Shown one piece after another: positions 13,134 to 13,523 of a stretch of 32,011 nt of DNA. This stretch comes from Spirochaetales bacterium (GTDB lineage: Bacteria > Spirochaetota > Spirochaetia > DSM-2461). A program made the translations under genes and the position numbers. How positions within the stretch are numbered: position 1 is the stretch's first letter; each line of letters begins with the position of its first letter. The stretch is taken from positions 1-32,011 of the forward strand of contig JAQQAM010000144.1 of NCBI GenBank assembly GCA_028532905.1, read 5' to 3'. Under the pieces are notes generated by a model. That model did no database searches and had not been told where the DNA came from. It saw only the letters and a program-made list of their open reading frames with translations.

Positions 13134-13206
13134 GGCGCCGTACCCAAGCGGCTAAGGGAGTGGATTGCAAATCCATCATTCAGCGGTTCGAGTCCGCTCG
13201 GCGCCT
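13134..13206 (+). tRNA. tRNA-Cys (anticodon GCA)
   Basis: The acceptor GGCGCCG (13134-13140) pairs perfectly with CGGCGCC (13199-13205), and T13206 is the discriminator. The anticodon loop TTGCAAA carries GCA, and the T arm is AGCGG-TTCGAGT-CCGCT. The 3' CCA is not encoded. Its last 18 bases are the start of a 180-bp tandem repeat downstream. Confidence 0.95.
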
Positions 13207-13215
13207 ATTGTTATA

Positions 13216-13242
13216 AAGGATCAACGACAGTTGGTCCTTTTT
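13216..13242 (+). terminator. tRNA-Cys terminator, repeat copy 1
   Basis: A 10-bp stem AAGGATCAAC/GTTGGTCCTT (one T-G pair) with loop GACA is followed by a T tract. Confidence 0.92.
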
Positions 13243-13252
13243 CATTTATAAC
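13224..13252 (+). promoter_or_regulatory. possible promoter inside repeat copy 1
   Basis: ACGACA (13224-13229) and TATAAC (13247-13252) are spaced by 17 bases, in the same place in the repeat as the promoter-like pair before the GNAT gene. A transcript from here would run from about 13259 to the second terminator near 13421. Confidence 0.35.
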
Positions 13253-13394
13253 CTCGGACTCGAACTGGAAGAGCGGCGCGACGAGCAGGAGCGCAAATCA
13301 TCAGGGATGATGATTTAGTGATGGAAGAGGGCCGGGAGGGAAGAAGCAGGAGGCTGATGACCGGACGGCGAGTCCGCTCGGCGCCTATTATATT

Positions 13395-13421
13395 AAGGAT
13401 CAGCAACAGCTGGTCCTTTTT
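13395..13421 (+). terminator. terminator, repeat copy 2
   Basis: The stem AAGGATCAGC/GCTGGTCCTT with loop AACA keeps all ten pairs although one base on each arm has changed relative to copy 1, then a T tract follows. Confidence 0.9.
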
Positions 13422-13494
13422 CATTTATAACCTTCGGACTCGAACTGGAAGAGCAGCGCGACGAGCAGGAGCGCAAATCATCAGGGATGCCGGC

Positions 13495-13523
13495 GCGACA
13501 GTTGGTTCTTTTTCATTTATAAT
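13495..13523 (+). promoter_or_regulatory. promoter of the double-GNAT gene, made from a repeat remnant
   Basis: GCGACA (13495-13500), 17 bases and a perfect TATAAT (13518-13523) lie within and just past the third partial repeat copy. The start would be near 13530, leaving a short leader with AGGGGG before the ATG at 13542. Confidence 0.6.

Follow-up and report, generated by a model that had tools for sequence, protein, structure and literature searches.

What is the repeat that follows the tRNA-Cys gene of this spirochaete, and what might it do? The window, a stretch of 32,011 nucleotides from a Spirochaetales bacterium, contains a tRNA-Cys(GCA) gene (13134..13206; detected by ARAGORN and Rfam) with a tandem repeat behind it, and the tRNA and all features of the repeat lie on the + strand. 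The last 18 bases of the tRNA (CGAGTCCGCTCGGCGCCT, 13189-13206) occur again, unchanged, 180 bases further on at 13369, and the tail repeat reported by the sequence-only reading of this DNA is thus real. The gap between the tRNA and the first repeat unit holds an intrinsic terminator recognised from its sequence (AAGGATCAAC-GACA-GTTGGTCCTT followed by a T run, 13216..13242), and this block recurs with 91% identity as a second terminator at 13395..13422. A 56-nt block at 13254-13309 likewise recurs, with 98% identity, at 13434-13489. The third fragment mentioned by the sequence-only reading is also present and is the remnant of a third terminator (13497..13522, third copy of repeat family D1) that follows an incomplete second unit. 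The neighbouring genes are ordinary chromosomal ones, encoding an NAD-dependent DNA ligase, a GNAT acetyltransferase, an FMN reductase and HU-type proteins.

The 55-base block of that reading turns out to be the 5' part of a folded element. The complete element, unit 1, is 128 nt long (13252..13379) and is matched by a covariance model (R1) with 115.5 bits (E 1e-25 in a search of the source genome). It begins with an antitail, CGGACTCGAAC (13255..13265), which is the reverse complement of the tRNA-Cys T arm and forms the 5' arm of stem P1; the 3' arm is the sense tail (13369..13386), in which the final 18 nt of the tRNA recur without change, and positions of about 13255-13262 pair with 13369-13376. 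The tail of the tRNA is the template for both arms. P1 is followed by P2, which carries the hairpins P2a and P2b, and then by P3. P2a (13276..13294; GCGC / GCGC, loop GACGAGCAGGA) and the P3 stem (13332..13368) are defined by covariation, and P2b (13295..13316; AAATCATC / GATGATTT) combines a covarying stem with a near-invariant loop. The P2b hexaloop of unit 1 is AGGGAT (13303-13308), an instance of the CsrA-type loop ANGGAN, and P3 contains the hairpin AGC-AGGAG-GCT (13345-13355). Unit 2 (13432..13489, 98% identical in the repeated part) ends after the P2b loop, its P3 and tail being deleted; the sequence stops after CAGGGATG and continues with the end of the third terminator, and the model matches it weakly in the source genome (13432-13544, 18.5 bits).

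The same element occurs elsewhere in the source genome. The block has seven more blastn matches there, nearly all behind other tRNAs, and the ten units that were aligned each begin with an antisense copy and end with a sense copy of their own tRNA's tail. Model R1 finds 26 matches, spread over 18 places; the genes ahead of them encode tRNAs for Leu, Gly, Cys, Met, Pro, Lys/Glu, Arg, Val and Asp, or tmRNA. A tRNA or tmRNA lies upstream of all matches except one pair and one weak match at a contig end (C40:127-261, E 0.33). An assembly artefact, which the sequence-only reading had kept in mind, is excluded because family members are found behind other tRNAs throughout the genome. Among tandem units at L008/L013 (C8), the terminators vary in the stem and keep the loop CAAATACCTCG, a divergence that looks compensatory.

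The exceptional pair consists of two units on contig C15 (G000:C15:12500-24430, L274) whose tail is that of tRNA-Leu(CAA), a gene located near the end of contig C36 (G000:C36:1-371, L273). An insertion into the tail of this gene evidently separated the array from it, and a tail copy ahead of the array (C15:13180-13193) resembles the far end of such an insertion. An open reading frame behind tRNA-Leu(CAA), cut by the contig end, was considered by eye as an integrase and discarded as such, having no Pfam or PHROGs match.

Members of the family are widespread in Spirochaetota. R1 detects them in at least 66 of 393 genomes, and a covariance model refined from 69 units (R2) in at least 84 of 393 genomes and at least 40 of 167 genera; the genome counts are lower bounds, as eight candidates were scored per genome. 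Linkage was assessed in 89 loci, which together hold 135 units. In 80 of the 89, the element directly follows a tRNA or tmRNA gene on the same strand, and in all but one of these 80 the gap to the first unit is 3-82 nt. The remaining loci, taken case by case, are accounted for by contig ends, by tRNA 3' halves that are broken or divergent, or by displacement. The block is thus tied to tRNA and tmRNA genes, and the condition under which the sequence-only reading would have been refuted, a block located mainly away from tRNA genes, does not hold. A terminator separates the RNA gene from the unit in 57/71 loci, as compared with 18/272 control stretches. At the tmRNA loci L033 and L159, the element follows the tmRNA and carries a copy of the tmRNA tail. 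At two loci (L194, upstream of unit 341-465, - strand; L223, upstream of unit 275-438, - strand), only a tRNA 3' half precedes the array, as if inserted DNA had replaced the 5' half. Three loci (L164, L206, L184; genome G203) contain four to six similar or identical units per tRNA with a period of 180-230 bp.

The proposed search of other tRNA genes, in this genome and its relatives, did reveal tail repeats together with the block. It is near certain that these belong to one large family, as yet undescribed, whose members are folded RNAs located behind many different tRNA and tmRNA genes in spirochaetes. At gathering level, only tRNA and tmRNA are matched by Rfam in the window and at the other loci; at a relaxed level, the repeat region yields chance-level matches only. 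A sequence-pattern scan of the genome contigs gave chance matches, none of them confirmed by the covariance model. The family is absent from Rfam 15, and no description of it was found in the literature searched.

The arms of P1 are tied to the host RNA. When the end of each unit is compared with the final 18 nt of the RNA upstream of it, the longest match has a median of 18; for other tRNAs, the mean is 4.6. The tail match starts at tRNA position 56 in 92 units and at position 57 in 18, and the complementarity of the antitail to its own tRNA has a median of 9 nt (123 units). The upstream RNA thus supplies, with its final 18 nt, the sequence of both arms, the 5' antitail and the 3' tail. The body between them is conserved as a fold. 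When ten units are aligned by sequence alone, compensatory changes on both sides are found in 27 of 38 pairs. Across 68 distinct units, covariation is seen in 37/39 pairs and pairing in 92% of cells, with a covariation score of 0.742 as compared with 0.07-0.09 in slid controls; because this larger alignment was fitted to the model, the ten-unit figure is the less biased one. These alignments show that the fold of the elements, about 128 nt long, is conserved across many genera of Spirochaetota. Taken jointly, the family, its tRNA linkage, the tail templating and the fold leave us with hardly any doubt.

The sequence-only reading had likened the repeat to E. coli tyrT, and this likeness is borne out. 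The tRNA-linked repeats (TLRs) of E. coli, of which there are 22 copies (Egan and Landy 1978 and Rudd 1999, as cited in PMC8144298), include tyrT/rttR (Rfam RF00391, RtT) and rrA, rrB and rrF of rrnA, rrnB and rrnD. They are mostly without known function, the rRNA-linked ones excepted. Elements of both families lie behind tRNA or rRNA genes, in tandem, with a period of about 150-180 bp, and their 3' end is identical to the final 18-19 nt of the RNA ahead of them. In the E. coli sequence, tail copies lie at +160, +338 and +516, with a spacing of 178 bp, and an antitail (GGGGAAGGAT), located 60 nt behind tyrV, closes the element. The two families differ in their inner hairpins and in the start of the tail, which lies at tRNA position 56 in spirochaetes and later in E. 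coli tyrT; the spirochaete elements, in addition, follow a wide range of RNA genes, including those of tmRNA, and occur in many genera. RF00391 has no match in the source genome at E up to 10. The best match of R2 in 99 kb of E. coli is rrB, in register and weak (14.8 bits, E 0.14), and the tyrT units receive no score there. Three further E. coli matches, at ppc-argE, were set aside since their sequences look like ordinary nested-hairpin intergenic repeats. Given the shared location, tail and tandem layout, the two families are alike in design, and they may share descent or may have converged. The spirochaete element is likewise a TLR, of a kind already known and mostly unexplained.

Of particular interest are the loops, since they point to the RNA-binding protein CsrA. 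The P2b loop is an ANGGAN hexaloop in 63 and an AGGAN pentaloop in 52 of the 135 units (115/135 together) and is closed by C-G in 131; the columns of the P2b stem, 8 bp long, vary freely (mean commonest-base fraction 0.55). GGA is found in 125/135 P2b loops and 88/135 P3 loops, and the number of GGAs per unit is 6.77, as compared with 4.96 after dinucleotide shuffling and 1.59 on the opposite strand. Some P2b loops and many P3 loops are ACGAN. Such loops should not bind CsrA. The P2b loops show the same motif as the established CsrA sites, namely CAGGA(U/A/C)G in CsrB, RUACARGGAUGU in SELEX and ANGGAN in RsmE complexes (PMC7652899), although SELEX favoured stems less stable than those of P2b (PMC7652899). 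In E. coli, rrB, which lies between the T1 and T2 terminators of rrnB and has CAGGACG in a loop, binds CsrA in vitro through its GGAs (PMC8144298); CsrA binding is predicted there for the three rRNA-linked TLRs only and not for the 19 tRNA-linked ones (PMC8144298). CsrB/CsrC and RsmX/Y/Z likewise present many GGAs in hairpin loops of the types CAGGA(U/A/C)G and ANGGAN. Unlike these RNAs, the spirochaete TLRs are tied to tRNA genes and have a tRNA-templated stem, and their CsrA sites are predicted ones. No CsrB or RsmX family of Rfam matches the window repeat at gathering level (rsmX, 20 bits as compared with a gathering threshold of 56), and no CsrA sponges of such kind in spirochaetes were found in the literature searched.

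The CsrA of the source genome is intact, with the RNA-binding residues L4 and R44 by position and a PF02599 match. Since fliW adjoins csrA (L009:1423-2111), a protein antagonist of CsrA is already present in this spirochaete, which counts against a CsrA role of the TLRs. CsrA is found in 80/84 genomes with TLRs and 254/309 others (p 0.002), a comparison confounded by lineage. In the four TLR genomes in which no CsrA was detected, GGA is kept in most loops (12/18 P2b and 16/18 P3), a further point against such a role. A complete loss of GGA loops in these genomes was entertained and dropped when more units were included, the loss being partial and confined to P2b (12/18 as compared with 120/129, p 0.004 with relatedness ignored). 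On the whole, the link to CsrA is a well-motivated proposal.

In one genome (G177), the bodies found behind tRNA-Trp and tRNA-Arg are 87% identical, while each unit carries the arms of its own tRNA, which are wholly different, and the linkers differ too. Point mutation is unlikely to have produced arms with 18 matching bases within the time available, and the arms were most likely copied from the host tRNA. Within a genome, copies would spread as bodies that acquire both arms anew from the tRNA of the new site, and recombination between tails would give rise to tandem copies. We guess that the copying step occurs by template switching at the near-palindromic T loop (TTCGAA), with tail recombination then producing arrays. 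A wider reading, which we hold to be less likely than not, is that of a phylum-wide family that colonises tRNA and tmRNA genes by such re-templating and also acts as a set of growth-coupled CsrA sponges.

Dispersal of this kind might instead serve the elements themselves. TLRs could be selfish or semi-mobile parasites of tRNA 3' ends, copied by template switching at the TTCGAA T loop or by a transposase in trans, with a fold that promotes copying or persistence and GGA loops that serve that machinery rather than CsrA. Body similarity between sister genomes is indeed indifferent to tRNA identity (0.552 for the same anticodon and 0.553 for different ones) and is higher within a genome than between genomes (0.57 as compared with 0.48), which such parasites would explain, as they would the exact re-templating of the arms, the arrays of near-identical copies and the presence of TLRs in some genomes without CsrA. 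We nevertheless consider this improbable: copy number is modest, no transposase or integrase gene is seen at the window locus, and the compensatory changes in the fold and its near-invariant loops, maintained over large distances, point to a function needed by the host or by the element. Alternatively, TLRs may act in cis, as tail decoys or 3'-extension modules that tune the 3' processing, termination or quality control of tRNA and tmRNA. The exact start of the tail copy at position 56, its nearly invariable fit to the resident RNA, the placement between terminators and the occurrence behind tmRNA agree with such a role, which leaves the conserved inner hairpins and the GGA loops unexplained; moreover, most tRNA genes of the source genome do without a TLR (about 18 loci as compared with 49 genes), and we regard a cis role as quite unlikely.

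Duplication of the tRNA tail is a hallmark of tRNA-targeted integration, and remains of repeated island or phage integration were the other origin put forward by the sequence-only reading. Besides the tail duplications, the tRNA 3' halves ahead of the two arrays at L194 and L223 and the insertion that split tRNA-Leu(CAA) from its array speak for it. That insertion, however, displaced a pre-existing array and did not create one, and an antisense arm is not a product of site-specific integration. Islands and att sites also duplicate the tRNA 3' end; unlike them, the window repeats are short, have an antisense arm and a conserved RNA fold, and lack an integrase. The suggested look for integrase remnants covered ten neighbouring proteins and revealed no recombinase gene or remains beside the repeats. 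With 37/39 pairs covarying, integration remains are a highly improbable account.

We therefore favour, with a probability of roughly 0.58, the reading that these elements form a second, spirochaetal TLR family of RNAs that are co-transcribed with tRNAs and probably titrate CsrA. Read-through of the tRNA terminator would yield a tRNA-TLR transcript, and the tail copy would provide the TLR with the 3'-processing signal of the tRNA, such that processing would release a stable small RNA whose amount follows tRNA transcription. The ANGGAN and AGGAN hairpin loops of this RNA, in P2b and often in P3, together with its other unpaired GGAs, would capture CsrA dimers and thereby reduce the pool of free CsrA, in the manner of CsrB/C and E. 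coli rrA/B/F. Titration as such is somewhat better than an even bet.

A second and much larger TLR family, with a fold supported by covariation, templated arms and CsrA-type loops, turns these repeats into testable biology. It would connect tRNA synthesis with the Csr system and would show a way in which a structured element can re-tailor itself to each new tRNA.
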